DNA of 64,000 bases. Source: Candidatus Babeliales bacterium (GTDB lineage Bacteria; Babelota; Babeliae; Babelales; Vermiphilaceae). Positions 997 through 15,707 of the stretch are shown piece by piece (within the stretch, counting starts at the first letter, position 1; each line of letters starts with the position of its first letter). The notes beneath the pieces were generated by a model. That model did not search any database. It saw only the letters and a list, made by a program, of their open reading frames with translations, and was not told the origin of the DNA. The position numbers were made by a program, and so were the translations under genes. Location of the stretch: positions 1 to 64,000 of the forward strand of contig JAGVLK010000016.1 in assembly GCA_020049835.1 (NCBI GenBank), given 5' to 3'.

Positions 997-1365
997 AAAC
1001 TAAACCTTTGCTCATCAACGCTCTGTCGCCTGCTCCAAAACATCTTTGAGAGATGCTTAGTTTAAAATGATTAGAGAATATTAATTCAATGACAGTACTC
1101 GAGTGCAAGTTTTAGTGCGCAGGCGCATGGCTTCTGTCTAACCAGCAACAATTCTAGCAGGTGAAAAAAATATTTCAAGCTCACATACGTTAAATCGCAG
1201 AGCATATAAATACTACCCATCGATTATGCAAAAAATTTGAATTAGTAACATTAATAGGGCCAGAAAAGCACTAGCACCAATGCTAAAGCTTGGCAATCAT
1301 GATTACTACACAACCCAATAAAAAAAAGGATCCACAGAAATGACATTGCTGATCAATCCAAAAAA
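997..1365. other. Gene-free gap
   Basis: This 369-base gap lies between two minus-strand genes. The short open frames in it have no ribosome site and no protein-like composition. It must hold the promoter of the 331-996 gene, but no convincing -35/-10 pair could be picked. No structured RNA was recognised. Confidence 0.4.
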
Positions 1366-1710
1366 TTAATGTTTGCGAAATATCAACTTAATCAATTCGA
1401 GTACCCACACACTTATTAACCAAATGATTATACTCAGCAACCCTAGAAAAAATGCGCCTGCACAAAGAATCAACAAGACATTGCCCAAGGAACTTTTAGA
1501 TATTATCACTAGCAATGCAACCAAAAGTAATACTATGCCAATTTGCTTGAAATTCTTTTCTATAACTTTCAAAGCCGGCGCAGTTGCTTCACAAATTAAG
1601 CTGAAAATTGCTATCGTTAGGCCAATTACAAATCCTAGTATTGATAGCACAATGGGTCCTAATGTTTTCATTATATACAAAAGGGCTGCAAGTTCTACGA
1701 TCCAAGACAT
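1366..1710 (-). CDS. Small multi-span membrane protein, unknown function
   Basis: A 114-residue, strongly hydrophobic protein with about three membrane segments: roughly residues 10-40, 55-80 and 82-108. It has a short basic C-terminus (LIKLIFRKH). The start is supported by AAGGAAGA seven bases upstream. No family motif was recognised. It sits between an unknown soluble protein and a lipoprotein, all on the minus strand, but the gaps are wide enough that co-transcription is uncertain. Confidence 0.6.
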   Translation of the reverse strand: MSWIVELAALLYIMKTLGPIVLSILGFVIGLTIAIFSLICEATAPALKVIEKNFKQIGIVLLLVALLVIISKSSLGNVLLILCAGAFFLGLLSIIIWLISVWVLELIKLIFRKH

Positions 1711-1759
1711 GCTTTTATCTTCCTTACAAGGTTAAATAGCTTTATATACGGTAATCCTT

Positions 1760-2539
1760 TCATTTCATCCTCCTATTCTGTTTACACAAAATAGACAGCA
1801 CCTCTTTATCATCATAATCTATCGTTCTAGCTATCTCGCCGTATGTATCTTTACCGAAGTAGTCAAACATACCCACTAATAGGTAATCTAGAGCTATCCT
1901 CAAATCGGCATTTTCACTACTGCTGACAGTTCTACCTTCCCAAACCTGAACTTTAGGCCATATGTCTTTGTCTAATACGATTTCTGAACCGTTTATCCAA
2001 TGCATAAATTGCTGCATCCAAGAACACGCTTCTTTTCTATCCTGAACCTCTTTTCTATATAGATTGAGATCAAATATCGCTATATCAAGCACACGGTGAA
2101 ATAAGGTATAATTTTGCGGAATATAATTTATTGTACCCGATGATTGGCTCGTTTGCGTATATCCTCCCGCTCCAAAGCCTCTACTGTTATAAACAGTACC
2201 CTGCGTTACGCTAACTGTTCCGGGAGTATAAATCGGCACATATGCAGTATGCTCAGAGCTGCTCATATCAAAGCTAAATACTAAGCCGTAATCGGCTACG
2301 TCATCTACCGCAACAAAACCTTTGTTTTCTAAAATAGTTGTAATCTTTGTGGATACTTCATTTGAAAGCATCTGATCATGATTGCTTAAAGAAAGAAGTC
2401 TGAAAGACGCCCCTGGTGCAAAACCAATAGGCAGATGTCGCTTATCTGCTATTGTATTAGTGGTAACACGAACCTTTATGCACGATGAGAAAAACATGAT
2501 AGACAGTAAAACCAAAAAAAAACTTTTACACTTAAACAT
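1760..2539 (-). CDS. Putative lipoprotein, unknown function
   Basis: The protein has 259 residues when started at the ATG that follows GGAG (spacing seven); the open frame extends eight codons further upstream without a ribosome site. The N-terminus MFKCKSFFLVLLSIMFFSSC is a lipoprotein signal ending in a plausible lipobox (FSSC), so the mature protein should be membrane-anchored. The middle is Gly/Ser/Thr/Tyr-rich (about residues 95-150), and the layout resembles DUF4136-type lipoproteins, but I cannot confirm the family. The acidic C-terminus is predicted helical. Confidence 0.65.
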   Translation of the reverse strand: MFKCKSFFLVLLSIMFFSSCIKVRVTTNTIADKRHLPIGFAPGASFRLLSLSNHDQMLSNEVSTKITTILENKGFVAVDDVADYGLVFSFDMSSSEHTAYVPIYTPGTVSVTQGTVYNSRGFGAGGYTQTSQSSGTINYIPQNYTLFHRVLDIAIFDLNLYRKEVQDRKEACSWMQQFMHWINGSEIVLDKDIWPKVQVWEGRTVSSSENADLRIALDYLLVGMFDYFGKDTYGEIARTIDYDDKEVLSILCKQNRRMK

Positions 2540-2684
2540 ATATAACTCCAAAATTTCGTTCAAAATAACCTATTCCATATCACCTATATAATGAGATTCT
2601 TAATTGTTTTGATCGCTGAAGGTGGCATACTATTTCGCTTGGCTTTTTAAAATAACGTTTTGTGACAATCATTTACTCAATCGA

Positions 2685-3302
2685 CTAAGGCCTGGCATTA
2701 ATTAGTCCTATTTCATGGTTTTGTTGTTGTTGAGTGTATGTTTTGTTTGCTAAGATTTTGAGTATTTCTTGTGCTTTTATATTTCCTAGTACTGCAGCAC
2801 GAAGAAGATCGGCTAAGTAGGCTGCTGAATTCCCAAGTGCATTATAAACTTCTGCACGATTTTTATAACAGATATGTTCTGATGGATCTAATGATATTGC
2901 CATACTAAAATCTTGAATTGCCTGAGAATAGTTTTGCAAAGAGGTATATGCACGTCCTCGCTCATTCCAAGACTCAATACTAGTTGAATCCATAACTATA
3001 CACTTAGAACAGTACTTCACTGCTTTTTGCCACTGGTTTGCGGCAAAAGCCTTCTCAATTTTTTTTGCGTAGCGATTAAATTCTTTTGCATCATTTAAAA
3101 GCTTTAACGCTGCGGGAGTACCTATTTGCTTAAGATATGCTTCAGCATAAGGTATGAATTGTTCTTCGGTGGCAAAATTTACAGCTTGCTCTTTTAATTG
3201 CTGTTTAAGTCTCGCGTATTCTTGATAATCTACATGATCACGCGATTGACACGTAGTAGCAATCGAAATTGCTAACGATATTGAAATTAAAAACTTATTC
3301 AT
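2685..3302 (-). CDS. Exported TPR protein
   Basis: A 205-residue protein with a cleavable-looking signal peptide (MNKFLISISLAISIATTCQS). Two tetratricopeptide repeats follow at about residues 92-160. They are recognisable by the W/A-G-Y-A spacing in ESWNERGRAYTSLQNYSQAI and by the DPS at the repeat boundary. TPR arrays bind other proteins, so a scaffold or host-contact role is possible but is inference. The gene lies among other small exported proteins on the minus strand, with AGGAC upstream of the start. Confidence 0.75.
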   Translation of the reverse strand: MNKFLISISLAISIATTCQSRDHVDYQEYARLKQQLKEQAVNFATEEQFIPYAEAYLKQIGTPAALKLLNDAKEFNRYAKKIEKAFAANQWQKAVKYCSKCIVMDSTSIESWNERGRAYTSLQNYSQAIQDFSMAISLDPSEHICYKNRAEVYNALGNSAAYLADLLRAAVLGNIKAQEILKILANKTYTQQQQNHEIGLINARP

Positions 3303-3332
3303 AGTTATTCGTCCTAAAAAATATATTTTGTT

Positions 3333-3626
3333 TTATCTACTATTTTTGCCATCTTTATAGCCATCCATATAAAATTCATCTTTAATATATTTAGGCCTTT
3401 TCTTATTCAACCCGTCATCGAAACCTTCATCGTACATATCAGAGTCCCAAGATCCGGAAACATAACCATCTTTTTCCTCTTGGCTAGCCCAATAATCGGG
3501 CTCTTCTTCATATTGCCAAGCCGCTTCATATCCCTTTTCATATGACTTATCCGTACAACCGCTCAATAGGAGCAACGTCAACAAAAATGATAGGCTACCC
3601 TGAGAAATAAAATAGTCCTTGATCAT
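3333..3626 (-). CDS. Small putative lipoprotein rich in acidic and aromatic residues
   Basis: The start was placed at the ATG preceded by AAGGG, giving 97 residues; the longer open frame reads into the upstream ankyrin gene. The N-terminus ends in LLLLSGC, a good lipobox. The mature part has repeated Y-x-x-G-Y/F-x-x-G segments (EKGYEAAW, DGYVSGSW, DEGFDDGL, DGYKDGK), about four copies of a short imperfect repeat. No function is recognised. It follows the ankyrin gene by ten bases, so the two are probably co-transcribed. Confidence 0.7.
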   Translation of the reverse strand: MIKDYFISQGSLSFLLTLLLLSGCTDKSYEKGYEAAWQYEEEPDYWASQEEKDGYVSGSWDSDMYDEGFDDGLNKKRPKYIKDEFYMDGYKDGKNSR

Positions 3627-3636
3627 ATTAATACCC

Positions 3637-4476
3637 TTATAGTGTTGCGCCGTTGGCAATGAGAAACTGAACTGCATCCTGAGAATTCCCTCCCTGAAGT
3701 GCAAATGCCAGTAGCGTAGTAATATCTTTACCATTAAATGTAGTTTTGAAATTAATGTTGGCACCATGAGACAGCAATACCAGTACATTTTCCGTCCAGT
3801 TGTTCCTATCAATACACCGTGACAACGGTGTGTAAGCAGGAGTACCATACATAGAAGGATTACACGAAGATGTACAGCATGAAGAACTATTCGAAGCAGT
3901 AGAATCTACGTTTGTGGTAATAGTGCAATTAGGATCAGCACCATACTCTAAAAGAAACTTAAGCGTTTTTGGGCCTATAAATCGCATATTATTTGGATCG
4001 ACTACATCAGTCCATAAATCTTTAATGCTGGCATAACCCATAAGGACCATATCCTTGAATATCTCTAATGCTAAGTCATCATTAGCACACTGCGATATAC
4101 GATTAATTACTAGCTTTTTATGCAGCCCAAACTGGTCTGGCGAAGATTTTATAATACTCCAAAGATCGCGTACCTCAAACCGGTAAATGGTACCTTGAAA
4201 TACACGTTCATCAATACGAGCTTTAAGCTCAAGAAGCGTCTGTATGGCATTATGCTTTTGGTATCGTAACGCCACTGAAAAAGGTGATACGTCACATTCA
4301 GTGTAATTAATGTCCGCACCAGCGCAGACTAGTCGTTTGATATCTTCGGCAGAGTCTGCCAGGACAGCCTTGATCATCTCGTGATTTAATTGACGCGCAT
4401 TATTTTCAGATTGAAAGTTGTTTCCTGCGATAGTCGTTGAGAAGGCAAACAATAAGACAATTTCTTTTTTGAACAT
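3637..4476 (-). CDS. Exported ankyrin-repeat protein
   Basis: A 279-residue protein with a signal peptide (MFKKEIVLLFAFSTTIAG) and degenerate ankyrin repeats. The clearest are CAGADINYTECDVSPFSVAL near residue 50, FLLEYGADPNCTI near 170, and VLLSHGANINFKT plus FLIANGATL at the C-terminus. A Ser/Cys-rich insert (SSSCCTSSCN) sits near residue 195. Ankyrin proteins bind other proteins, and exported ones in amoeba-associated bacteria are often host-directed; that role is inferred here. AGGGG precedes the start. The lipoprotein gene ending at 3333 follows closely. Confidence 0.85.
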   Translation of the reverse strand: MFKKEIVLLFAFSTTIAGNNFQSENNARQLNHEMIKAVLADSAEDIKRLVCAGADINYTECDVSPFSVALRYQKHNAIQTLLELKARIDERVFQGTIYRFEVRDLWSIIKSSPDQFGLHKKLVINRISQCANDDLALEIFKDMVLMGYASIKDLWTDVVDPNNMRFIGPKTLKFLLEYGADPNCTITTNVDSTASNSSSCCTSSCNPSMYGTPAYTPLSRCIDRNNWTENVLVLLSHGANINFKTTFNGKDITTLLAFALQGGNSQDAVQFLIANGATL

Positions 4477-4683
4477 CCATAACCCCTAAATAAATGAACC
4501 TACACTTTGTTTCTATTTCTCAACCTAACAAATTAACATATTGTTGTAAAACGGTAAAAGGCGCTTATTTAAAAGTCTTTTTTGATAGTTTTGAGTCATA
4601 TAGCTACCCTATTTACGCATGGTAACGGCTTGTTGCATGGCCTCTTTGCTGGTAATATTACTTTTAAAGATACTGTATTTTGC

Positions 4684-4697
4684 TATCTATTTCGATA
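4684..4697 (+). promoter_or_regulatory. Candidate shared operator or promoter element, site A
   Basis: TATCTATTTCGATA lies 19 bases before the ATG at 4717. A 13-of-14 match lies before the next gene (5211-5224). TATC and GATA form a small dyad. A regulator binding site is an inference. Confidence 0.4.
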
Positions 4698-4716
4698 TAG
4701 GGGATAAAAGTAAGCC

Positions 4717-5184
4717 ATGACCGTAAAATTACTATCAAAGAGCCGACCCATAAGTGATTTTATGGATCCCACAAGCAATCAGCCTGATTGCGACAAATGG
4801 CGCCTTAGGTTAATTGTAACGATGCTTACATGGGCTTCAAGCCCTGATGCTTTAGAAATTATGGGATTCTGCATCCGATATAGGATCTCCAGAGAAACAC
4901 TGCATAATTGGGCTAAAGAATACGAAGACATTGCTCGTGCACTTGAGGAAATGAAATTGTTCATAGCTGCCCATAGGCGCATCGGCTGCATGAAGAAGCA
5001 ACTCGATAATCACTCAGCCTTTAGGAACATACATTTACTTGATCCAGAAGAAGACGCAGTAAACAGGTATCACGCAGATCTCAAGAAGAAAAATGAGCTC
5101 GAAGAACAAGTAAGATATCTTGTTGAAATCGTGCGACCAAAAATCATCGACAGGGTTGATACAATCAAAGAAATCAGCGCTTAG
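4717..5184 (+). CDS. Terminase-small-subunit-like HTH protein
   Basis: A 155-residue protein. Residues 45-85 read as a helix-turn-helix followed by a helix: GFCIRYRISRETLHNWAKEY, then a helix carrying LEEMKLFIAAHR. That arrangement is typical of phage terminase small subunits, which recognise the packaging site in DNA and hand it to the large subunit. The C-terminal half is a charged, probably coiled-coil region. No large terminase gene is adjacent, so a packaging role is inference; a generic DNA-binding regulator is the alternative. The ribosome site is weak. The motif at 4684-4697 lies just upstream and recurs before the next gene. Confidence 0.55.
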   Translation: MTVKLLSKSRPISDFMDPTSNQPDCDKWRLRLIVTMLTWASSPDALEIMGFCIRYRISRETLHNWAKEYEDIARALEEMKLFIAAHRRIGCMKKQLDNHSAFRNIHLLDPEEDAVNRYHADLKKKNELEEQVRYLVEIVRPKIIDRVDTIKEISA

Positions 5185-5210
5185 AGGCAACTGCATACCC
5201 TGCAGTTTAC

Positions 5211-5224
5211 TATCAATTTCGATA
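5211..5224 (+). promoter_or_regulatory. Candidate shared operator or promoter element, site B
   Basis: TATCAATTTCGATA lies 13 bases before the ATG at 5238 and just before its AGGAG ribosome site. It matches site A at 13 of 14 positions, although the genes behind the two sites are unrelated. Confidence 0.4.
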
Positions 5225-5237
5225 AATAGGAGACCAT

Positions 5238-5885
5238 ATGACTCATTGGGGATGGTATTGGGGAATAAAAAAGCAGCATGTTGCCAAAACATTGTGCACA
5301 CAATTGGTATCGATCGACTCTTTCAAGCTATTTAAGAATACTGGGTTTACTAGTTTCAACATTCAACCGTTTGGTATTAACGCTGAGCGAACAGAGAACC
5401 ATTTTAAGCTCAGATATCCCGGCCGTAAGGACAATGTATACCAGATTCCTATCGATAAGCTACCTTGCAATTATGGTGGCGTGCGCTACTACTTTAAGTG
5501 CCCCTTGTGCCAAAAACGTATGCGGATTCTGTACTTTTCAGAACAACGCATTTTTCTTTGCCGCGTATGCTTGAACCTAGGCTACCCTACGCAAAAGTTA
5601 AGACCCACAAAGCGTTATGAGTACATGAGCAAGAAGATTAAGCAACAGGTAAAGGATCGAGGCGGGAATCTCGATATCTACAAGAAGCCACCGAAGATGC
5701 ATCGTAATACTTATCGAATGCTACGCAGTAGGCAATTCTACTATGAATCTAAATCCCATCAAGCATTAAACGCAGAGTTGCGCCAATGGTACCCTAAGAT
5801 TGCATCTGAACTGGATGATTATTTTGATTACGTTGATGAGAGCAAGGAGTGGAGGAAAATAAGAAACTCGACGCATTGCAGTTAA
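5238..5885 (+). CDS. Zinc-ribbon protein of mobile-element type
   Basis: A 215-residue protein with a C-x2-C...C-x2-C zinc ribbon at about Cys88/91 and Cys108/111, set in GVRYYFKCPLCQKRM and IFLCRVCLNLGYPTQ. The pattern aromatic-aromatic-x-CPxC, then LY, then a second CxxC followed by L-x-Y-x-(S/T)-Q, is familiar from short proteins on phages and plasmids, whose function is not known to me. The C-terminal half is basic and helical. AGGAG precedes the start by six bases. Its stop overlaps tail-to-tail with the minus-strand gene that ends at 5882. Confidence 0.65.
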   Translation: MTHWGWYWGIKKQHVAKTLCTQLVSIDSFKLFKNTGFTSFNIQPFGINAERTENHFKLRYPGRKDNVYQIPIDKLPCNYGGVRYYFKCPLCQKRMRILYFSEQRIFLCRVCLNLGYPTQKLRPTKRYEYMSKKIKQQVKDRGGNLDIYKKPPKMHRNTYRMLRSRQFYYESKSHQALNAELRQWYPKIASELDDYFDYVDESKEWRKIRNSTHCS

Positions 5886-7366
5886 TCCCATCTCTCTGTT
5901 TCAAATTTTTCTACGTACTTACGCACCTTTTTTGCCAACATCGCTGATTGTATATTAAAAATCGGAAAATTCGGCCTTAATTCTGCGCTATACCTGGTTT
6001 TTTGGGCTATACATAGCTCATCAAGAACACCCTTTATTCCAACGCGCTGCAGGTATTTAGTTGCATTTAATCCATCAGCAGCATCCGGATTCATTTTACT
6101 GAAGCCTTCCGCTATAAGCTCATCTATAAATTTAAAGGCATAACTATTTTCATCATCGGCAAATGTATGCAAGGTAATAACTTCAATAAGCCCGGAAGCC
6201 CATTTAACAAACAACCGAAGATATTTGCAATCTTCAATGCCCAGCTTTATACTGCTTGGCATCGGTAAACTTTCAATATGTCCTACATCAAGTTTGTAAA
6301 TGTACTCTAGAATGATATTCAAGTTACGATCAATGCGGTCTCGTGAATAAATAATCTGCTTTAACTTACGTCCACTTTTTGTTCTCAAAGGACTTCCGCT
6401 ATACAGAGCTTTAATTTCAACGTGAGTAAAATGAAGATCCATAAGCTGCGCGTCTCTAGCGCATGCTGCCGTGTCCATGGCTTTTTTAGGCTTATTTTTT
6501 ACTTTAGCTTCTACCTTTTGTTGGTGATACAAGGCCTTTTGCCTAAAGTAATCTCTGGACACTTCGGTGCTCCAAATAAGACGATACAAGTATGCATATG
6601 CAATCCATACAGACCGGCTAGGGCGTGTTAAGTCAAAGCTTGCTTGCAGTCTTTGTAAATTAAAAAATGATGGCGCCATTGTAAAACGTTTAATCTGCGC
6701 TTCGCGCATCCAGACCTTATACCTGTGTATCGTGAAAGAATTCTTCGAATCCCCACACCTTGGACAAGTCCAATTTGATGGCAAATCTTCAAAGGGAATC
6801 GGCATATCTAGCTCATCTTTGCACGCTGTTCCAACATTGTAGAAAAAACCACAGAAATTGCCGCAAAAGGATTCCGTGAAACCCGTTTTAGGATTTTGTT
6901 CCTGATACCGATATGCTTCTACATATTTTACTTTAGCATAGTGAATAAGAAGATCGTCCCTGCCCAAATCAAGCAGTCTATAACATATTTTTGAAAAATT
7001 ATCGTATGCCACATCAGAGGGAGGCGGCATTATAAATTCCGGTCTATTGTCAAAAATACTTTCCAAAGCAATTTTGCACTTGTTGATTACGGGATCGTCC
7101 ATTAGATCTTCCGCAATCAGAGTCAATTTCAGGGATTCAAAGTCATGCTGGAATTCACGTATCGCATCAGCCTCGAACTCAACACATTTTTTGCTATAGT
7201 TCTTTGCCTTCCGTCGCCATTTTAGATGCAATACCGGAGCAATTCGCTCAATCAAGGGCATCACTCTTGTAAGAATACCTATTAGGTAAGCCCTATCATT
7301 TTTTTGCTCACGAACAAATTCGGCACAATACTTCAGAACAGCAATGGCTTTTGATGAAATAGTCAT
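5882..7366 (-). CDS. Unknown protein with an embedded rubredoxin-like motif
   Basis: A 494-residue, mostly helical, basic protein with no signal or membrane segment. At residues 168-211 it carries a sequence strikingly like rubredoxin: a first knuckle CGNFCGFFY (C168, C172), then PFEDLPSNW and a second knuckle CPRCG (C201, C204), followed by DSKNSF. Canonical rubredoxin has Cx2C in both knuckles; here the first is Cx3C, confirmed in the DNA. The domain could bind iron or zinc. The flanking 170- and 280-residue regions match no family I know. It is the only long gene of the element on the minus strand and is divergent from the replication module. Confidence 0.6.
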   Translation of the reverse strand: MTISSKAIAVLKYCAEFVREQKNDRAYLIGILTRVMPLIERIAPVLHLKWRRKAKNYSKKCVEFEADAIREFQHDFESLKLTLIAEDLMDDPVINKCKIALESIFDNRPEFIMPPPSDVAYDNFSKICYRLLDLGRDDLLIHYAKVKYVEAYRYQEQNPKTGFTESFCGNFCGFFYNVGTACKDELDMPIPFEDLPSNWTCPRCGDSKNSFTIHRYKVWMREAQIKRFTMAPSFFNLQRLQASFDLTRPSRSVWIAYAYLYRLIWSTEVSRDYFRQKALYHQQKVEAKVKNKPKKAMDTAACARDAQLMDLHFTHVEIKALYSGSPLRTKSGRKLKQIIYSRDRIDRNLNIILEYIYKLDVGHIESLPMPSSIKLGIEDCKYLRLFVKWASGLIEVITLHTFADDENSYAFKFIDELIAEGFSKMNPDAADGLNATKYLQRVGIKGVLDELCIAQKTRYSAELRPNFPIFNIQSAMLAKKVRKYVEKFETERWD

Positions 7367-7571
7367 GTTTAACTCAGACTGGATGGTTATCGATTCACAA
7401 AGCTTACCTAACAGTTACAGAGTACTATAAACGTCGCGATTTTTCGATCATGGCAAAAAGACAACCTCCGTTAAGCCCTTTCCAATCAGTAAAAGCATCG
7501 CAAATTTACCCTAAATCATGGGGTGCAAAAAAGGGCATTAAGCTTTTAATAACGTTAAACAAGTTTAAACA

Positions 7572-7589
7572 AGCGTACCAATTTACGCT
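7572..7589. promoter_or_regulatory. Dyad upstream of small orf
   Basis: AGCGT and ACGCT form 5-bp arms around an 8-base AT-rich centre, directly before the AGGAG at 7594-7598. A GTTTAAAC palindrome lies next to it. It is a plausible operator in the divergent control region of the element, but weak. Confidence 0.25.
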
Positions 7590-7605
7590 CGTCAGGAGTT
7601 ATTAC

Positions 7606-7710
7606 ATGAAGCAAGAATTAGCATCAACGGATATTAACATGCTCAGATTCTTTGCACTGCTATACAAGATCGACAAGCGCAACAAGCGAGAACAACAAGA
7701 AAATAACTAA
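7606..7710 (+). CDS. Very small hypothetical protein of the element
   Basis: The protein has 34 residues when started at the ATG that follows a perfect AGGAG with seven-base spacing. The open frame extends upstream to 7450 (86 residues), but that longer start has no ribosome site. It is highly charged, with a basic, Gln/Glu-rich tail (KIDKRNKREQQENN). It is first in the rightward replication run and divergent from the rubredoxin-like gene. It might be a small regulator; nothing in the sequence proves this. Confidence 0.4.
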   Translation: MKQELASTDINMLRFFALLYKIDKRNKREQQENN

Positions 7711-7748
7711 AAGAATTGAGCAAGTGAGGATGATCCTCGCCTCTCACA

Positions 7749-7776
7749 CCACCGTATACCGAGTGGTATACGGTGG
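7749..7776. repeat. Perfect 12-bp inverted repeat
   Basis: CCACCGTATACC and GGTATACGGTGG form a perfect stem with the loop GAGT. No T-run follows on either strand, so it is not a typical intrinsic terminator. It lies between the small orf and the primase zinc module; it could be an operator, an mRNA processing hairpin or a replication-origin structure. Confidence 0.7.
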
Positions 7777-7839
7777 TCCATAGATTCATTCATCAACAAT
7801 AAAGAAGCTGGCATTCACCAGCTATAAAAGGTTCTAATT

Positions 7840-8130
7840 ATGTATAATAATTCTACTAAAAATCCCAATCATACACAACGCAAATCAATTACAATGCCAG
7901 AACTACTTAGCATGATCGTTACATACAATGGTAGTGGTGTAAAACAATGTGGTAGTACCTACCGAGTTAACTGCCCTGCCCATGGCGATAGACGTCCCAG
8001 CATGACCATAAGAGAAGCCAATAATGGCCCCATCTTACTCTACTGCCATACAGGATGCACAACGCAGGAAATCTGCGATGCACTTGGCATACATATCAGC
8101 CAACTATTTCCGCCAAAAAAGGTGGGTTAA
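7840..8130 (+). CDS. CHC2-like primase zinc-binding module, stand-alone
   Basis: A 96-residue protein holding only the zinc module of a DnaG/phage-type primase. The ligands are CPAH (about residues 47-50) and CHTGC (about 68-72), followed by TTQEICDALGIHISQLF, the helix usually found after this domain. In primases this module recognises the template, and the Toprim domain makes the primer. Here the Toprim domain is encoded by the next gene, four bases downstream in another frame, so the two probably work together. AAAAGG precedes the start at some distance. Confidence 0.75.
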   Translation: MYNNSTKNPNHTQRKSITMPELLSMIVTYNGSGVKQCGSTYRVNCPAHGDRRPSMTIREANNGPILLYCHTGCTTQEICDALGIHISQLFPPKKVG

Positions 8131-8134
8131 CACT

Positions 8135-9616
8135 ATGAATACTCAGAAAAAAATCGTCTACTCTTACGAAAACGAGCAAGGCGACGTGCTTTTCAAGAAA
8201 ATACGCGTTGAAAACGAAGATGGATCCAAGAGCTTCTACTTTGAACGCGAGGAGAATGGTCAAATAGTTAGAAATATGAATGGATGCAGGCATGTTCTTT
8301 ACAAGCTACCGCAACTGTTAGAGGCTATCGCTCGTGAAGAACCGATATTCCTCGTTGAAGGGGAAAAAGATGCTGAAACTATAATTAAATGGGGATGGGC
8401 AGCAACAACTGCCCCCATAACTCGCAAATGGGAAGAATCGTTCACGCAAATTCTAAAAGGTGCGCAGGTAGCTCTCTTCTATGATAACGACAAAGCCGGA
8501 GTAAATAGGCGTGACATGATAACGTCACAGTTATATAACAATACCAAGCGTTTCCGCATCATCGATCTGCCTGGTATTGAATATTCCGAATCCCATGGCA
8601 AAGATGTTACCGATTGGCTTGAAATACCAGGCAATGATATTAAAAAACTAGAACAAATTATATACAACACGCCCGATCATAGACCGCCACAAAAAGATCA
8701 ACCAGAGCAACTTAAAGGACCATTACGCGTGATAACACTGAACGAACTTATCGCATTAGAACTACCCGAACGTGCAATGCTGCTGCACCCATTTTTGCCA
8801 AGCCAAGGTCTCGTTATGCTTGCAGCTAAGCGTGGCGTAGGCAAAACACACGCTGCATTAGGTATAGCGTATGCCGTCGCAAGTGGCGGTACCTTTTTAA
8901 ATTGGTATGCTTCAACTGCAAAAAAGGTGCTCTACATTGATGGCGAAATGCCCGCAGTACAAATGCAGGAGCGGCTACGTATCATCGCAGATATGTCAGA
9001 TACGCGACCCGAAGAACAATTTCTGCAACTCATTACTCCTGATCTACAAGAACGCCCCATACCTGATCTTTCCACCAAGCAAGGTAGAGATATCTTTGAA
9101 GAATATATCAAAGATCGCGATCTAATCGTCATCGACAATCTATCATGCTTATTCCGGAGCGGTAATGAAAACGATGCTGAATGTTGGCAAGAAGCACAGG
9201 AATGGGCGCTTGACCTACGCAGGCGTGGCAAGTCCATATTATTTATACATCACACCGGTAAAAGTGGCACACAACGTGGCACCAGTAAAAAAGAAGATAT
9301 TCTGGATGCTGTAGTTCTACTAAAACATCCGGATGATTACAAAGCTTCAGAGGGAGCACGATTTGAAGTTCACTTCGATAAGGCGCGACATTTTTCTGGT
9401 GAAGCAGCTAAGTCATTTGTAGCGCACTTGAGGCAAGAGAATGATAACTATGTATGGCATATTTCTAATGGTGATGAAGAAGAGCTGCTGAAGGAGATAG
9501 TCCACATGCGCGCAACAGGGCTTACTATTCAGGCAATAGTCGAAAAAACCGGACGTAGCAAGTCACAGATAGAAACACTGATTAAAAAAGCAAAGACCCG
9601 AGAGATAATCCAGTAA
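8135..9616 (+). CDS. Toprim primase / RecA-like ATPase (RepA-type) replication protein
   Basis: The protein has 493 residues when started at the ATG after the zinc-module gene. An N-terminal Toprim domain shows VEGEKDAE (near residue 75) and FYDNDKAG (near 117), the acidic metal-binding motifs. The second half is a RepA/DnaB-like ATPase: Walker A KRGVGKTH near residue 233, DGEMP near 270, Walker B LIVIDNL near 330, and a sensor-like IHHTGK. A C-terminal HTH (TIQAIVEKTGRSKSQIETLI) ends the protein. It should prime and unwind the element's DNA during autonomous replication. A 15-bp hairpin follows the stop. Confidence 0.8.
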   Translation: MNTQKKIVYSYENEQGDVLFKKIRVENEDGSKSFYFEREENGQIVRNMNGCRHVLYKLPQLLEAIAREEPIFLVEGEKDAETIIKWGWAATTAPITRKWEESFTQILKGAQVALFYDNDKAGVNRRDMITSQLYNNTKRFRIIDLPGIEYSESHGKDVTDWLEIPGNDIKKLEQIIYNTPDHRPPQKDQPEQLKGPLRVITLNELIALELPERAMLLHPFLPSQGLVMLAAKRGVGKTHAALGIAYAVASGGTFLNWYASTAKKVLYIDGEMPAVQMQERLRIIADMSDTRPEEQFLQLITPDLQERPIPDLSTKQGRDIFEEYIKDRDLIVIDNLSCLFRSGNENDAECWQEAQEWALDLRRRGKSILFIHHTGKSGTQRGTSKKEDILDAVVLLKHPDDYKASEGARFEVHFDKARHFSGEAAKSFVAHLRQENDNYVWHISNGDEEELLKEIVHMRATGLTIQAIVEKTGRSKSQIETLIKKAKTREIIQ

Positions 9617-9621
9617 AAAAC

Positions 9622-9668
9622 GGATTTCCGATTTCTGGTTTCCTAAGCAAATAAGAAATCGGAAATCC
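9622..9668. repeat. Perfect 15-bp inverted repeat after the replication gene
   Basis: GGATTTCCGATTTCT pairs perfectly with AGAAATCGGAAATCC across a 17-base loop. It starts six bases after the stop at 9616. The T-tract after it is poor (TTCATAC). It may end or stabilise the replication transcript, or it may be a recognition site for an element protein. Confidence 0.6.
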
Positions 9669-9744
9669 TTCATACACGACATATACATCGTAATGTTTGT
9701 AAAGGTTTGATATACTTAAAGCATAATCAATAAGGACCAACTGC

Positions 9745-9933
9745 ATGTTTAAGATAACCGATTATTTAACAATTCAAGACGCAGCAAAATTTCTTGGCGT
9801 CGCCGCAAATACCTTACGCAACTGGGAAAAGGAAAAAAAAGTTACGGTATACCGTAATCCCCAAAACCAGTACCGCTTATACAAAAAAGAAGATTTAGAG
9901 CAGCTGCTCAACAACATACAGCCTATGCGATAA
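9745..9933 (+). CDS. MerR/excisionase-like helix-turn-helix protein
   Basis: A 62-residue DNA-binding protein. LTIQDAAKFLGVAANTLRNW is a standard winged-HTH of the MerR/excisionase kind, with the wing in YRNPQNQYRLYKKEDL. The recombinase starts four bases after its stop, so translation is probably coupled. IS607-type transposases fuse the same kind of HTH to a serine recombinase; here the HTH is separate. It is likely a recombination directionality factor or a regulator of the recombinase. The start follows AAGGACC. Confidence 0.75.
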   Translation: MFKITDYLTIQDAAKFLGVAANTLRNWEKEKKVTVYRNPQNQYRLYKKEDLEQLLNNIQPMR

Positions 9934-9937
9934 TGTA

Positions 9938-11404
9938 ATGAAAGCACTTATTTTTGCACGCGTTTCAAATAAGGATCAGGAAGATGGGCAATCAATACCT
10001 GCTCAAGTCCGACGCCTTACCGATTACGCAATTAAAAAGAATTTTACTATCGATCGTACGTTTCAGGTCACTGAATCATCCTCTAAGGATACACGTAAAC
10101 AGTTTGAACAGATCATCAACTACGTCAAAAAGTCAAAAGATACGTTTGCACTTATTACCGATACCGTTGATCGACTACAACGTAGTTTTAGAGAAACGCC
10201 TCTGCTTGATGAGCTACGCAAACAGGGCAAAATAGAACTGCATTTTTTGCGTGAAGGTCTTGTTGTAAATCAATCTGCGAACAGCGCTCAGCTCTTGCAA
10301 TGGGATATTGGCGTTCTTTTTGCATCCAGCTATGTGCGGCAATTGAGCGACAACGTTAAACGTAGTCAAGAGCAGTGTATACGCAACGGGCAATGGATTT
10401 CTAAGGCACCATATGGCTACAAAAACATTACATTGCCTACAGGGCAAAAAAGCATCGAAGTTGACCCTCTACAAGCAGCATGTGTCGTCAAAATTTTTGA
10501 CCTCTATAGCAGAGGCAATAACTCTTTTCAAACAGTTGCACTAAAGATGCGCATCGAAGGCTTTGCAACAACCGCTCGAGGCAAATCCATAACTGCACGG
10601 ACGGTTGAACTTATTTTAAAGAATCCCTTTTATATGGGCATGATGCAGATCAAAGGACAGCTGCATCCGCATAAATATCCAACCATACTGTCTGCTTCGA
10701 TATTTAACCTGGTACAACAAACGATTGCCAATCATAACAAGGCACCGGTACAGTTTGCAGGCAAGCCCATCTTGTTCAGAGGACTAATACAGTGTAAAAA
10801 CTGTGGTTGCTCGGTAAGTGGTGATATAAAGAAACAGAAGTACGTCTACTATAGCTGCCATAACTCAAAACGTATTTGTATAAAGAAGTGGGTCAAAGAA
10901 GAAGCTTTGCTCAAAACGATCTTACACGAATTTGATAGCATAAGCATTACTGATCAGCAGATTACTGATATCATAGCGTACATACAAGAGCATGAAGAGC
11001 AAGAAGAGGCACTCGCACAGCAATCACAGCTTGAACTCACGCGCCAAATCAACCGCGTCCGGGAACGGATATCAAAACTTGTTGATATGCATCTTGACGG
11101 CACAATCGATCGTGGCACCTATCAAGCAAAGCTTGATGAATACAAACATGAGCAGCAAGAGCTACAATCAAAAATAATGGCTTATGGCGAAAGCAAGCAA
11201 GAACTGGTAACCGCACGAATTGTGCTTAATTTGGCAAAAGAAGCCAAGAATATTTTCATGAGTTCGAAGTTGGATGAAAAACAGCAACTTTTACGATTTT
11301 TCTTTTCCAACTTTAAGCTGAATGACGGGCAGCTCGATCTGGAGCTGCGTGATCCATTCAAAAATATTGCCAAATTGTCAGATCAAACAATATGGCGGGG
11401 CTGA
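9938..11404 (+). CDS. Large serine recombinase (site-specific integrase)
   Basis: A 488-residue protein with a catalytic resolvase domain at 1-150 (nucleophile Ser10 in ARVSNKDQ, and DRLQRS near residue 80), a recombinase domain at about 155-265, and a zinc ribbon with CKNCGC near 286 plus later cysteines. A Glu/Gln-rich coiled coil lies at about 345-430. This is the standard layout of large serine recombinases that integrate phages and conjugative elements. The final residues TIWRG and the stop are encoded by the 3' end of the opposite-strand tRNA-Asp gene. Such recombinases usually need a partner for excision, and the HTH gene just upstream is a candidate. Confidence 0.9.
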   Translation: MKALIFARVSNKDQEDGQSIPAQVRRLTDYAIKKNFTIDRTFQVTESSSKDTRKQFEQIINYVKKSKDTFALITDTVDRLQRSFRETPLLDELRKQGKIELHFLREGLVVNQSANSAQLLQWDIGVLFASSYVRQLSDNVKRSQEQCIRNGQWISKAPYGYKNITLPTGQKSIEVDPLQAACVVKIFDLYSRGNNSFQTVALKMRIEGFATTARGKSITARTVELILKNPFYMGMMQIKGQLHPHKYPTILSASIFNLVQQTIANHNKAPVQFAGKPILFRGLIQCKNCGCSVSGDIKKQKYVYYSCHNSKRICIKKWVKEEALLKTILHEFDSISITDQQITDIIAYIQEHEEQEEALAQQSQLELTRQINRVRERISKLVDMHLDGTIDRGTYQAKLDEYKHEQQELQSKIMAYGESKQELVTARIVLNLAKEAKNIFMSSKLDEKQQLLRFFFSNFKLNDGQLDLELRDPFKNIAKLSDQTIWRG

Positions 11405-11469
11405 CGAGACTCGAACTCGCGACCTTCCGCGTGACAGGCGGACGCTCTAACCAACTGAGCTACAGCCCC
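11393..11469 (-). tRNA. tRNA-Asp (GTC)
   Basis: 77 nt including an encoded CCA. The acceptor pairs GGGGCTG with CAGCCCC, the anticodon loop reads CTGTCAC, and the T-arm carries GTTCGAGTC. The 3' end (11393-11404) overlaps the last codons and the stop of the recombinase gene on the other strand, which marks it as a likely integration site. Confidence 0.95.
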
Positions 11470-11531
11470 TTAAAAGATGTATTTCATAATGAAGCCAGAT
11501 GATAACCTTTTGCCGGGTAAATATGTGGCCT

Positions 11532-11579
11532 GCCATACGAAGTTTGCCAAGCCGAAGGCCTGGATAAACGAAGTATGGC
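11532..11579. repeat. REP-like hairpin fused to the tRNA-Asn 3' end, copy 2
   Basis: A 48-nt imperfect hairpin with outer arms GCCATACGAAGTTT and AAACGAAGTATGGC. It shares its design with 115-163. Its last four bases are the complement of the discriminator base and CCA of tRNA-Asn, so the tRNA 3' end forms one end of the palindrome. Confidence 0.6.
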
Positions 11580-11651
11580 TCCTCGGACAGGACTCGAACC
11601 TGTGACCTAACGATTAACAGTCGTGTGCTCTACCAGCTGAGCTACCGAGGA
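11576..11651 (-). tRNA. tRNA-Asn (GTT)
   Basis: 76 nt with an encoded CCA. The acceptor pairs TCCTCGG with CCGAGGA, and the anticodon loop CTGTTAA gives GTT. It lies in a cluster Val > Asn > Asp read on the minus strand. Confidence 0.95.
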
Positions 11652-11688
11652 ATACAATTTCAAGAGTGTTGTTCTTAGAGGCCAAATT

Positions 11689-11764
11689 TGGTGGGCGGTA
11701 CAGGATTCGAACCTGTGACCCCCAGTTTGTAAGACTGATGCTCTACCAGCTGAGCTAACCGCCC
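11689..11764 (-). tRNA. tRNA-Val (TAC)
   Basis: 76 nt with an encoded CCA. The acceptor pairs GGGCGGT with ACCGCCC, and the anticodon loop CTTACAA gives TAC. It is the first gene of the three-tRNA minus-strand cluster. Confidence 0.95.
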
Positions 11765-11889
11765 TCTAAGAACTAGATGAAAAGATTTTAAAGGAAAACA
11801 AAAAGAAAGTCAAAGCAAAATCACTATTTTTTATAGGTATCTACAAAAGCATGTGCACACATCCATTTAAACTACACTTTAAAAACCAA

Positions 11890-11916
11890 CAAAGCCCCGT
11901 ACAAGACGGAGCTTTG
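11890..11916 (-). terminator. Probable terminator of the gene ending at 11950
   Basis: CAAAGCCCCGT and ACGGAGCTTTG form a stem with one internal mismatch around the loop ACAAG. On the minus strand a five-base T-run follows after four bases. The position, 34 bases past the stop, fits. Confidence 0.55.
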
Positions 11917-11949
11917 CATAGATGTACGTATATACTGTAATCTTACAAT

Positions 11950-12816
11950 TTATGCATTAATATCACTCGGGTTTTTCCAATACTGCTGATCCATATAACC
12001 AACAAATAATGGTTCATGCATACCCGGACGCTCGATCCAAACAAAGAACGGCGTATCGATAGTTACATCATGTGTTATACAACAACGCATACCAAATGCA
12101 GCTGCACTTTGTGCACGTGCACCCGATTCATTCATTTTAAACTTAGTTTGCTGTTTTGCTTGATCAATATGATACTTACCAATTGCCAATCCACGCAGCC
12201 AATCAAGTTCAGCTGTCTCATCGTAATTAATCATAGGGATAATAACTTTATCACATTTTCGTGCATATTCTAATACCGGTGATGTGCGAATCTGATTAAT
12301 TTTATCAAGCAATGCCATGTCTGTTACCGGCTCATCAGCAACGGTAATCCATACCGTATCTTCTGTTTGCGTGTTAATACATATTACCGGATGTGCATAT
12401 CCAGATGGTTGATGAATACTAAAACCCTTATCTAATGCAAATGCAGCATATTCAACATCGTTGACATCAACTAAAGATGTCACGCTGCCAGCTTTTTCCC
12501 ACTGTACTGCAATATCCATAATAGCAACTACACCAAAAGGACATGGATTTAAACGAATAGAAAAGCCTTCTTGTTCTAATATACGGTTAAGCCATTCTAT
12601 ATTAGCTGACGCCCAAGTGCGTAATTCACCCGGCTTAAAGAGCTCAAGATCACCCAGCATTGGATTATAACGATATAAAAAATCTTTTTGTACTTGGGTA
12701 ACCGGTTGTGCAGTAATAAGATCCCATGCGCGTATCGGCTGCACATCCTGATGTACACACCCAATCGCGCCCATTAATGCCGCAATAATTGGCCATATCG
12801 CCATACTTGAAATCAT
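11950..12816 (-). CDS. Putative lipoprotein, unknown function
   Basis: The protein has 288 residues when started at the ATG after AGGAGT; upstream ATGs lack a ribosome site. The N-terminus MISSMAIWPIIAALMGAIGC ends in a lipobox (AIGC), so it should be lipid-anchored. The mature part has a mixed alpha/beta composition with no motif I know. The gene is monocistronic by appearance, between the tRNA cluster and dus, with a hairpin terminator behind it. Confidence 0.65.
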   Translation of the reverse strand: MISSMAIWPIIAALMGAIGCVHQDVQPIRAWDLITAQPVTQVQKDFLYRYNPMLGDLELFKPGELRTWASANIEWLNRILEQEGFSIRLNPCPFGVVAIMDIAVQWEKAGSVTSLVDVNDVEYAAFALDKGFSIHQPSGYAHPVICINTQTEDTVWITVADEPVTDMALLDKINQIRTSPVLEYARKCDKVIIPMINYDETAELDWLRGLAIGKYHIDQAKQQTKFKMNESGARAQSAAAFGMRCCITHDVTIDTPFFVWIERPGMHEPLFVGYMDQQYWKNPSDINA

Positions 12817-12904
12817 ACTGGTACTCCTATGCATAAGCATATAATATTACATAATTGCATAATAAGCATAGCTCAAGCCATAAAAAAGCGCAAATGGCTC
12901 ATCT

Positions 12905-13888
12905 TTAAAGGGAACCGGCCATCGCCTGGGTTAATCCCTGCTTAATAAGCTCCGGATCGGTCACCGTAACCAAGAATTTGCGTAATTCTGCCGCATCGGG
13001 AAGGCCACGAACATAAAATGGCAAATGCTTACGAAACACATAAACTGCGTGCAAGCCGTAATAATCGAGCATGAGCTCAAAATGGCGCAGTGCGCAACGG
13101 TAAATCAGCGCACGATCAACCACAAACTCACGTCCGGCTGCATGTTCCCGCATTTCATGTAGTTTCCATGGTTTGGCCCAGATGCCACGGCCAATTAAAT
13201 AGCCATCAACACCCGTTTGCTCATAGACCATCTGTGCCGTTTTAAAGTTAACAACACCCCCGGAAACGATAACCGGTATCTGAATAGCCTTTTTAACTTC
13301 TGCTACCAGCGCATAATCGGGGCGTCCTTCAAAATGCTGTGTCTGCAAGCGCGGATGAATAGCAAGCGCATCAACACCGCAATCTTGGGCCAGTTGTGCA
13401 ACTTCAACGGCATTCACGGTTTTAAAGCCAGCGCGAATTTTGAGGGTAAAGGGAACGTTAAGATTGCTTCGCATAGCGACCAAAATCTGTTTTAAGCGAG
13501 GTAAATCTGCCATAAGGGCAGAACCCGATCCTGAACCAATAACGTTGCGTGCCGGGCAGCCAATGTTTAAATCGACCATATCTACACCCTTGGCTACAAT
13601 GCGTTCTAGTGCTTGGGCAATAAAGCGTTCATGATTGGCAGCAACTTGATAGTTAAGCGGACGCTCAAGCTGTTCAAAATTAAGCGATTTAACGCCACCT
13701 TTATCATTGGCAACACAGGCTACATGGCGCATTTCTGTATACAGCAGCTCATCGGCAGAAAATTCACGCACTAAACGGCGAAACGGCGCATCGGTAATGC
13801 CGTCTAATGGCCCGCCGATAAAACGTGGATACAGTTTATCTTTAATACGTATGCTACCTTGCCAGTAATCACGCTCGTCAAAACTCAT
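12905..13888 (-). CDS. dus: tRNA-dihydrouridine synthase
   Basis: This FMN enzyme reduces specific uridines in tRNA to dihydrouridine using NADPH. The 327 residues have the full Dus layout: GGPLDGITDAPFRRL (FMN entry, residues 25-39), the conserved DLNIGCP (Cys111), FTLKIRAGF with Lys150, a HPRLQTQHFEGRPDY segment and PVIVSGGV...GYLIGRG for phosphate binding. The length is usual for the DusB-like group, but the exact site specificity cannot be told. It stands alone on the minus strand, with a hairpin-rich leader at 13920-14080. Confidence 0.9.
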   Translation of the reverse strand: MSFDERDYWQGSIRIKDKLYPRFIGGPLDGITDAPFRRLVREFSADELLYTEMRHVACVANDKGGVKSLNFEQLERPLNYQVAANHERFIAQALERIVAKGVDMVDLNIGCPARNVIGSGSGSALMADLPRLKQILVAMRSNLNVPFTLKIRAGFKTVNAVEVAQLAQDCGVDALAIHPRLQTQHFEGRPDYALVAEVKKAIQIPVIVSGGVVNFKTAQMVYEQTGVDGYLIGRGIWAKPWKLHEMREHAAGREFVVDRALIYRCALRHFELMLDYYGLHAVYVFRKHLPFYVRGLPDAAELRKFLVTVTDPELIKQGLTQAMAGSL

Positions 13889-13940
13889 ACAGAACCTTTA
13901 AAAAACCGTTAGATCTCGATCTTACAAGAGATGAAGCGCT

Positions 13941-14077
13941 CACCGGCTTAAAAGCCGGTGTTTCGCGCGCAATTCTTCGAAGCAAAACTCTACCCTACTA
14001 CGCTAAAGCTACGAAGGGTTATTCTACTCGCAATTCATCCACAGGTTAAAACCAGTGATTTTCTTGCGAAGTAGAAT
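13941..14077. repeat. Cluster of hairpins between dus and the ankyrin-like array
   Basis: Three structures lie in a row: a 9-bp perfect hairpin CACCGGCTT/AAGCCGGTG (13941-13960), a REP-like segment with ACCCT...AGGGT ends (about 13991-14019), and a 13-bp stem with one bulge, ATTCTACTCGCAA/TTGCGAAGTAGAAT (14021-14077). The region lies between divergent genes, so these are not simple end-of-gene terminators. Confidence 0.5.
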
Positions 14078-14237
14078 AAGTATAGCGCATGTTAGCCATA
14101 AATTCCACCGCCGTCAGTTGGTTATTCGCCTCATTATAGCACATTTTTACCATATTTTTAAAAATTATTGCAGTTTGAAAATCGCAGATGCGATACTTAA
14201 AGATGATAACCTCGCTATTTTTAAAAGGAGCATTCCT

Positions 14238-14711
14238 ATGAAACGTTTTTTCTATACCGTTAGCCTGCTAAGCCTATTAGCGACTGGCATTAATACCATT
14301 CAAGCTGCATCATGGTTTGGCTTTGGTCAAAAAATAACGAATGCTGACCGTGATCTTTCAACCGCTATAAGTGACGGTGATTATAGAGCAGTTAACAAGG
14401 CATTGAGTGCAAAAGCAAATCCAAATGCAAAAGTTGATGGACATACCACCCTATTTATACATGCCTTTGTAGATGCATTAGAACATGATGAAAATAACAA
14501 AATTACCGGCATTGATTCTGATCGCGCTGATATTGCACGTTATCTAGCTGCAGCCGGTGGCAATAAAGCAGATCTTGAGCAAGACCTTAAACATTACGTC
14601 GATGCGAACGGTAAACCGCGTATAAAATTATTTGAAGACGCTAAAGCTGCGCAAGATTTTGAAACTTTTGTGTATAATCTTAAAAACCTTATTCCAACAA
14701 AAAAACGTTAA
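14238..14711 (+). CDS. Exported ankyrin-like small protein, paralogue 1
   Basis: The protein has 157 residues when started at the ATG after AAAAGGAG; the open frame is longer but without support. A signal peptide (MKRFFYTVSL...IQAA) is followed by SWFGFGQK and one ankyrin-like unit: DRDLSTAISDGDYRAVNKAL, then KANPNAKVDGHTTLFIHAF. It shares this core with the next two genes, so the three arose by tandem duplication. The function is unknown; exported single-unit ankyrin relatives might bind a host or envelope protein (inference). Confidence 0.75.
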   Translation: MKRFFYTVSLLSLLATGINTIQAASWFGFGQKITNADRDLSTAISDGDYRAVNKALSAKANPNAKVDGHTTLFIHAFVDALEHDENNKITGIDSDRADIARYLAAAGGNKADLEQDLKHYVDANGKPRIKLFEDAKAAQDFETFVYNLKNLIPTKKR

Positions 14712-14741
14712 TGTGTACCGTTCGTTTAAAAGGAAACACTC

Positions 14742-15245
14742 ATGAAACAGCTACTCAAAGTTACTATTATGCTCGGCATCTTAGTTATCGCCACACGCGC
14801 AGAATACAATGGCTGGTTTGGCTTTGGCAAAAAGAGCGCGCAACAGATTTCGCAAGCTGATCGTGATCTTGCTAGTGCCATAGAAGCCGGCAGCATAGAA
14901 GCTACAAATAACGCCATACGCAATGGCGCTCACCCTAATGCAAAAGTTGATGGACACACAAGTTTATTTATACATGCATTCGAACACGCTATCAACCGCA
15001 ATTGGCAAGGGAACAACAAAATTACCGGCATACATCCGGATCGCTCCGATATTGCACGCTTAGTCGCAGCAACACCTCCCGGTGGCAATATCGATGATCT
15101 TAATAAAGTATTAGAAGATTATTACGTTGATGCAGAGAATAAACCACGTAGGGAGTTATTTGTTAATGAGCAAGTACTCCAAGATTTCGCACTGTTTTTA
15201 TATCATCTGCACAATCTTGCTGTAGGCGCAGCACAAAACCGTTAA
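14742..15245 (+). CDS. Exported ankyrin-like small protein, paralogue 2
   Basis: A 167-residue protein with a signal peptide (MKQLLKVTIMLGILVIATRA) and a core shared with its neighbours: GWFGFGKK, DRDLASAIEAGSIEATNNAI, HPNAKVDGHTSLFIHAFEHA. Compared with paralogue 1 it has an insertion, NRNWQGN, before the NKITGIHPDR segment, which it shares with paralogue 3. AAAAGGAAA lies upstream, and the gap to paralogue 1 is 30 bases. The three genes are probably one transcript. Confidence 0.75.
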   Translation: MKQLLKVTIMLGILVIATRAEYNGWFGFGKKSAQQISQADRDLASAIEAGSIEATNNAIRNGAHPNAKVDGHTSLFIHAFEHAINRNWQGNNKITGIHPDRSDIARLVAATPPGGNIDDLNKVLEDYYVDAENKPRRELFVNEQVLQDFALFLYHLHNLAVGAAQNR

Positions 15246-15263
15246 AATAAAAGGATTTATATC

Positions 15264-15707
15264 ATGCAAAAAAATTTATTCTATCTATTCGCCTGCATTG
15301 CACTTGTACAAACTACACAGGGATCATGGCTTGCGCCCAGCACACAGCATTTGACCCATTCTGACCAAGCATTGTATTCTGCTGTGGAAGCCGGTGATAC
15401 CGGTGCTGCATTTCTTGCATTGCAAAAAGGGGCTAATCCTAATGCGCAGATTAATAGCTTAACTATTTTTATACATGCATTTGAGCATGCATTAAACCGC
15501 GATTGGCAAGGCGCCAATAAAGTTACCGGCGTTGATGAACATCGTGCCAATGTTGCCTATCAACTTGCACAACATGGCGGCAATATTAAAGATTTAGATC
15601 ATCATGTTGCGACGCACTATGGCATAACAGCATTTAAAAATAATTCAGCATCACGCGTATTCCATGCATTTGTGCAAAAACTTAAAGCTGAAGCAACAAA
15701 ATATTAA
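15264..15707 (+). CDS. Exported ankyrin-like small protein, paralogue 3
   Basis: A 147-residue protein with the signal peptide MQKNLFYLFACIALVQTTQG. The core is the most diverged of the three: SDQALYSAVEAGDTGAAFLA, then GANPNAQINSLTIFIHAFEHA, where the usual GHT of ankyrin repeats has become NSLT. It ends at 15707 and overlaps by four bases, tail to tail, with the PAP2-like gene on the other strand. Confidence 0.75.
   Translation: MQKNLFYLFACIALVQTTQGSWLAPSTQHLTHSDQALYSAVEAGDTGAAFLALQKGANPNAQINSLTIFIHAFEHALNRDWQGANKVTGVDEHRANVAYQLAQHGGNIKDLDHHVATHYGITAFKNNSASRVFHAFVQKLKAEATKY

Follow-up and report, generated by a model that had tools for sequence, protein, structure and literature searches.

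Does the DNA beside a tRNA-Asp gene of a Candidatus Babeliales bacterium carry a phage satellite, and where would such an element begin and end? The window, meaning the whole stretch of DNA analysed, comprises the opening 64 kb of contig G000:C6, which is 176 kb long, and the relatives of its source are named Candidatus Dependentiae or Babeliales. Initial annotation had placed a satellite-like element or integrative plasmid at 4684-11404, next to tRNA-Asp. The right end does lie in tRNA-Asp, but the left end was found at 160, which is 4.5 kb further left, and the minus-strand genes at 331-4476, formerly left outside, therefore lie inside the element. Comparison with relatives makes it almost certain that this is a mobile integrative element with ends at 160 and 11398. 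We consider, with moderate confidence, that this 11.2-kb Dependentiae element most likely lives as a phage satellite.

Boundaries and attachment sites

105-159, no strand: hairpin repeat of the host, which at first flanked tRNA-Asp on its 3' side and is now found to the left of the element (flank alignment)
160-199, plus strand: left attachment (att) arm, core TGGCGG and arm CAGACATGTGGTACACTACGAACTTTTAGATGGT (matrix score; motif in other bounded elements)
11393-11398, no strand: right attachment core TGGCGG, the CCA end and acceptor start of the tRNA (repeats the core at 160-165)
11393-11469, minus strand: tRNA-Asp (gtc), the integration target (ARAGORN)

The recombinase gene ends in ...TGG CGG GGC TGA, which is the CCA end and acceptor stem of tRNA-Asp, so its stop codon is located inside the tRNA. 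Because the integrase gene ends in tRNA sequence, tRNA-Asp is kept intact, and it is followed by tRNA-Asn and tRNA-Val, all three on the minus strand. A search of the window for a long direct repeat of the tRNA end found none. Since serine integrases need only a short core, the left end was located instead through two genomes (L049 and L054) in which elements stand in tandem at one site. The sequence past the core of one integrase is there the left end of the next element, and this gave the left-end motif TGGC-N17-CTTCGAA-N7-YTGG, which is present at 160 of the window. A matrix of the 40-nt left arm, built from six other elements with the window element excluded, scored 48.7 bits at 160, and no other site in the 64 kb exceeded 9.0 bits. 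The predicted junction of the integrase end with the left arm reads ...CAAACAATATGGCGGCAGACATGTGGTAC....

The window begins at the first base of the contig, so only 159 bases of left flank are present. Bases 105-159 align with the 3' flank of tRNA-Asn in the same genome (score 52, against a mean of 12.5 for random 70-mers). The hairpin repeat in the 55 bases left of 160 also caps tRNA-Asn in the source genome (G000) and resembles the flanks of empty tRNA-Asp sites, and bases 90-159 joined to tRNA-Asp give a native-looking empty site. From the left arm and this joining, together with the two att cores and the comparison with relatives, the element is therefore about 11.2 kb long (window 160 to 11398), and position 4684 falls inside it. 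The core tracks the target, being TGGCGG at tRNA-Asp and TGGCTGG at tRNA-Gln. Between occupied and empty sites of the same genus (G024/G017, G068/G084, G062/G055 and G087, G069/G081 and G034), homology begins at most 4 bases from the tRNA 3' end; the region downstream of tRNA-Asp is not conserved, and these alignments thus gave no left boundaries.

Gene content

4717-5184, plus strand: small terminase (TerS)-like protein, a candidate small terminase of 155 aa (model fold; PHROG terminase small, E=0.01; synteny in phage contig L262)
5238-5885, plus strand: Zn-ribbon protein, conserved across the family (homologues at 38-56% in the sisters)
5882-7366, minus strand: conserved protein of 494 aa with a rubredoxin-like Zn ribbon (Rubredoxin, E=1.3e-5)
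7840-8130, plus strand: CHC2 zinc-finger protein, primase Zn domain (phrog_6088 DNA primase, E=1e-11)
8135-9616, plus strand: Toprim and AAA_25 primase/helicase-type replication protein (AAA_25, E=3e-27; phrog_239 primase/helicase, E=2e-22)
9745-9933, plus strand: MerR/excisionase-like helix-turn-helix (HTH) protein, 62 aa (MerR, E=4e-10; TIGR01764 excise, E=9e-6)
9938-11404, plus strand: large serine integrase, its final codons formed by the acceptor end of the tRNA (domains Resolvase, Recombinase and Zn_ribbon_recom; phrog_95, E=2e-64)

Domain and PHROG matches bore out the serine recombinase, the excisionase-like HTH protein and the split primase plus ATPase that had been named from the sequence. 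Residues S10 and D78/R79/R82 of the integrase are invariant. The HTH protein, conserved at 56-80% beside the integrase in relatives, is a candidate directionality factor or regulator and may be the excision factor. Diverged homologues of the 494-aa protein were found at the same place in sister elements; a PDB fold search with this protein gave no match. An IS607-like transposon, to which the HTH protein and recombinase bear a weak resemblance, was considered and rejected because the recombinase has the full form of a large serine integrase.

The lack of capsid and portal genes was also confirmed, for in family searches none of the element genes tested matched large terminase (TerL), portal, capsid or relaxase, and no gene of the whole window fell in a head, tail or TerL family. 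With integrase, HTH protein and primase/helicase present and structural genes absent, the predicted gene content agrees with that of phage satellites in general and, for the integrase and replication module, with that of phage-inducible chromosomal islands (PICIs). Large serine recombinases are common in integrative and mobilizable elements and in integrative and conjugative elements, so a mobilizable element moved by conjugation might be considered. No relaxase, coupling or type IV secretion domain was found in any element gene tested, however, and we regard transfer of this kind as highly improbable.

Distribution and variation of the family

Many genomes have this gene order at tRNA genes, so the arrangement is not due to chance. 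Full-length homologues of the Toprim-AAA protein (52-59%) were found in 8 of 134 genomes searched besides the source, scattered over families, and integrase homologues above 55% in about ten other genomes. A second integrase family, at about 33%, occupies the same and other tRNAs in many more genomes. In all complete loci inspected in Dependentiae relatives the recombinase runs into the 3' end of tRNA-Asp, tRNA-Gln or tRNA-Glu, or into a sibling element. Twelve of 40 tRNA-Asp loci carried such an integrase, these loci having been chosen partly because they were occupied. Integrases from tRNA-Asp elements fall in a single clade (100/100) in which host families are mixed. Presence thus varies strongly among relatives, with tRNA-Asp empty in same-genus genomes, and the recombinase/primase pair, for which a search in related genomes had been proposed, recurs at scattered tRNA genes.

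The sister elements, spread over many genera and two phyla, measure 9.0-18.7 kb, and their frames are intact and their ends precise. Their replication module is swapped, being Toprim-AAA, a DUF5906/D5-like protein with a CHC2-Toprim primase, or DUF3987-Toprim. The cargo varies and includes defence-like genes, namely an MkoA-like helicase/nuclease (L046), a DrmD-like helicase (L199) and a type IIG restriction enzyme (L188). For 58 non-core open reading frames (ORFs) of seven elements, the best 25 PHROG families were primases, integrases, nucleases, enzymes or uncharacterised; no head, tail or large-terminase family was among these 25, with 18 weaker families besides.

The candidate small terminase

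The packaging role of the 4717 protein had been the least secure part of the satellite proposal. For this role the evidence is indirect but converging. Its AlphaFold model (mean predicted local distance difference test score 80.6, residues 31-100 above 90) is an all-helical HTH protein. Foldseek against viral proteins placed this model nearest to two Caudovirales proteins (E=3e-7 and 2e-4), followed by many proteins named TerS. In 50,697 phage records it had only two matches, the TerS beside TerL of one pair of Porphyromonas phages (E=0.03). A homologue is located two genes upstream of TerL in the phage contig L262, the only match in further viral scans with the 4717 family. Among 101 genomes, 12 of 14 strong 4717-like matches lie near this integrase family or at tRNA-Asp.

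In sister elements the 4717-like gene adjoins a gene with an HGG motif, which matches PHROG terminase small at E=4e-7, and in Bacillus phage vB_BboS-125 and Pasteurella phage Pm86 an HGG homologue is the gene immediately before TerL. The HGG gene is absent from the window element, and none was found in the rest of G000. The neighbouring Zn-ribbon protein at 5238 matches 24 phage records, all of Streptococcus, with a best E of 9e-7; all 10 among the matches listed are satellite phages. The claim of a terminase-small-like protein is thus supported by the model's matches to phage proteins, many named TerS, and by the L262 homologue. The profile comparison proposed for it gave a PHROG match, but a weak one. 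As presence varies among relatives and the 4717 protein matched no non-packaging family, the satellite-like or integrative reading of the initial annotation is supported.

Helper phage and alternative lifestyles

The phage contig L262 (IMG/VR IMGVR_UViG_3300048611_000177) encodes TerL (4e-25), a P22-like portal (2.5e-64) and a major head protein (6e-32). Its Toprim-AAA protein is 48% identical to that of the element and groups within Dependentiae proteins in a quick tree (SH-like approximate likelihood ratio test 94). L262 shows the kind of helper that could fit. The Toprim-AAA protein and the TerS-like homologue that it has in common with the element might also indicate a decayed prophage akin to L262-like phages, in which integrase, replicase and small terminase were kept and structural genes lost. 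Against this, no structural remnant was found among the best 25 PHROG families, and the reduced set recurs with intact frames, precise ends and swapped replication modules. Because it does so in many genera of two phyla, decay would have had to reach this gene set repeatedly and independently, which is unlikely, and we think this origin improbable.

Another phage contig, L150 (G024:C15), with TerL, portal and capsid-like genes, was rejected as helper, since it looks G+C-rich and is probably contamination or misbinned.

Several observations count against life as a phage satellite. The PHROG terminase small match of the 4717 protein (E=0.01) is weak sequence evidence, and PDB fold searches gave weak matches, with Sf6 gp1 TerS the sole sensible one at a probability of at most 0.38. 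G000 has no match to TerL (phrog_2) or portal (phrog_12). Across 101 genomes of the order, only 4 had a convincing TerL, in at least one case on a high-GC contig that looks misbinned, and neither TerS-like nor HGG relatives turned up in the prophage TerL regions. When IMG/VR was scanned with the attachment arm as a DNA pattern, the 16 matches were at chance level and came without element genes. Neither excision nor a circle, virion or helper was observed. In the satellites called phage-inducible chromosomal minimalist islands (PICMIs), a virulent helper leaves no prophage (PMC10803314); because such a helper would leave none here either, the rarity of prophage TerL is still compatible with a satellite.

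The same rarity of helper-type prophages in the order would suit an integrative plasmid or genomic island, which would excise, replicate and reintegrate by itself, without packaging, and spread by DNA uptake inside shared protist hosts, with the 4717 protein as a DNA-binding replication or regulatory protein. The integration and replication module is complete for such a life, and relatives of the Toprim-type and Zn-ribbon proteins are also carried by small plasmids, most of which are non-mobilizable. The TerS-like fold, the TerL synteny in L262, the HGG/TerS-like gene of the sisters and the Zn-ribbon matches in satellite phages argue against it, as does the lack of a partition gene among the genes tested, and we judge it unlikely, though it deserves more weight than decay or conjugation.

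For the favoured phage satellite, the following cycle might be speculated. Infection by a helper phage would lead the HTH protein to turn the integrase towards excision, and the CHC2 and Toprim-AAA proteins would replicate the excised circle. By recruiting the large terminase of the helper, the TerS-like protein would bring satellite DNA into the helper capsid. The integrase would then insert the element at tRNA-Asp of a newly entered cell, and the ankyrin, tetratricopeptide repeat (TPR) and lipoprotein cargo would travel along.

Comparison with known satellites and islands

By the general criterion of PMC13376191, a satellite is an integrative element that spans 7-20 kb, lies between att repeats and encodes an integrase and replication functions; here we found 11.2 kb, cores at 160 and 11393, an integrase and a replicase. 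For PICIs, the criteria include an integrase and replication module (i), att sites never occupied by prophages (ii) and a size of about 12-15 kb (iv) (PMC6092414). The element has integrase and replication genes, no structural genes and a size that agrees only roughly (11.2 kb). No tRNA genes were found in 12 TerL-bearing stretches, few prophages of the order being available to compare. Against the PICI master regulators (Stl/Rpr, AlpA or MerR) stands the 62-aa MerR-like HTH protein, and compared with known PICI core genes the Zn-ribbon protein alone matches Streptococcus satellites; it is common to the element and several satellites of the Javan series.

The element resembles PICIs, including the Javan satellite phages, in a size of about 9-15 kb, an integrase at one end, a small HTH protein as candidate regulator, a primase/replication module, a candidate TerS (PICIs often have a TerS), cargo and no structural genes. 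It differs in its serine integrase (that of PICIs is of the tyrosine type), MerR-like HTH protein, tRNA/tmRNA targets (tmRNA, transfer-messenger RNA), Toprim-AAA replicase and Dependentiae and environmental Chlamydiae hosts. On present evidence it would work like a PICI, yet it is not to be filed as one and is best described as a probable phage satellite of a distinct form.

PICMIs of Vibrionaceae are similar in their minimal integrase, regulator and primase, and DUF3987/DUF5906 primases also occur in sisters here. They differ by insertion in fis and by the use of AlpA, and searches of PICMIs found no terS homologue (PMC10803314); in place of a fis insertion with an int-alpA-primase core, the element sits in tRNA-Asp. 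P4-like satellites are likewise small integrative elements with a primase-helicase and cargo, but no P4 hallmark genes were recognised in family searches of the element, and integrase type and host differ. L262 has the 48% Toprim-AAA protein and the 4717-like protein upstream of TerL, but with TerL, P22-like portal and major head protein it is a real phage. Staphylococcal cassette chromosome elements and other serine-recombinase islands have a distantly similar large serine recombinase (CcrB E=4e-23, XisF E=4e-26) and differ in target, replication and cargo genes.

Cargo and other features

331-996, minus strand: cargo gene, 221 aa (open frame; no PHROG or PADLOC match)
1366-1710, minus strand: cargo gene, 114 aa, membrane-protein-like (open frame; no Pfam match)
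1760-2563, minus strand: cargo gene, lipoprotein-like (Pfam DUF4136, E=0.0017, weak and below the cut-off; FFSSC lipobox-like motif)
2685-3302, minus strand: cargo gene, secreted-looking TPR protein (TPR_1, E=1.7e-14)
3333-3626, minus strand: cargo gene, small lipoprotein-like protein (LLSGC motif by reading; internal ATG of ORF 3333-3848)
3637-4476, minus strand: cargo gene, secreted-looking ankyrin-repeat protein (Ank, E=4.5e-9)
7450-7710, plus strand: small ORF, 86 aa (L048 has a similar one in the corresponding position, 54.5%)
9622-9668, no strand: inverted repeat with 23-nt arms, 87% complementary, a terminator, operator or origin (repeat search)

Other loci of the family showed further arrangements. 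The tandem arrays L054/L122/L123 (G083:C7) and L049 (G085:C9) contain related but differing integrases joined at the TGGC core. Recombinase-less cargo blocks run from a family left arm to tRNA-Asp in L109 (G055, 11407-17640) and L113 (G007, 2943-9864), with the terminator-like tRNA flank repeated on both sides (an exact copy of about 45 bp in L109; in L113 an exact 21 bp that extends further if a change is allowed); from their sequence they look like integrase-less passengers. L044 has a second left-arm copy (53 bits) at 1865, 2.3 kb outside the left end of its own element, which suggests an older neighbouring insertion. The tRNA-Gln element of G020 encodes a tyrosine recombinase (Phage_integrase, L055:6099-7157) besides the serine integrase. 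In the near-complete genome G040, two tRNA-Asp genes in opposite orientation lie about 10 kb apart (L118, G040:C2:276000-295999).

Relatives in Chlamydiae and other bacteria

An alignment-based search of genome contigs revealed the Toprim-AAA protein at 49-53% identity in environmental Chlamydiae, where a single-protein scan of genome contigs had no match. At six chlamydial loci an integrase of the family stands beside Toprim-AAA and ends in tRNA-Tyr (L189, L193) or in tmRNA (L191, L197, L201, L213), the latter target (ssrA) being identified by reading the sequence. The whole architecture was found in L199 from a Simkaniaceae bin: 494-aa-type protein, Toprim-AAA, HTH protein (72%), integrase (57%), tRNA-Asn and left arm. 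The L199 integrase lies inside the Dependentiae group (99/98), and a single chlamydial clade was rejected (p=0.029). A Babeliales bin came from the same sample, so this 17-kb contig may be misbinned; the six other chlamydial loci do not depend on it.

The same DUF4379/MTES_1575-like nuclease is the first large gene past the left arm in L045 (1930-4128, Dependentiae) and L199 (365-2596, Simkaniaceae). Homologues of the ATPase half (47-51%) occur in Legionellales (L203, L208, L247 and L249; Aquirickettsiella, Legionella steelei and L. worsleiensis), in L249 with an HGG-type gene nearby.

Biological meaning

The genome paper of Babela massiliensis reported no phage or plasmid genes (PMC4378268), and the phage biology of Dependentiae is almost undescribed. 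No open-access paper joining phage satellites with Chlamydiae was found, and no phage satellite in these hosts was found described. We tentatively propose, with slightly more doubt than belief, an undescribed satellite family, defined by a tRNA/tmRNA serine integrase and a TerS-like protein and common to Dependentiae and Chlamydiae, which may move with L262-type P22-portal phages and carry defence and host-interaction genes between these hosts. Because the attachment sites are exact, integration and excision could be tested directly in a laboratory strain. If these elements are satellites, obligate protist symbionts with small genomes have phages and satellites, by way of which genes for defence and secreted proteins could spread, even between phyla.

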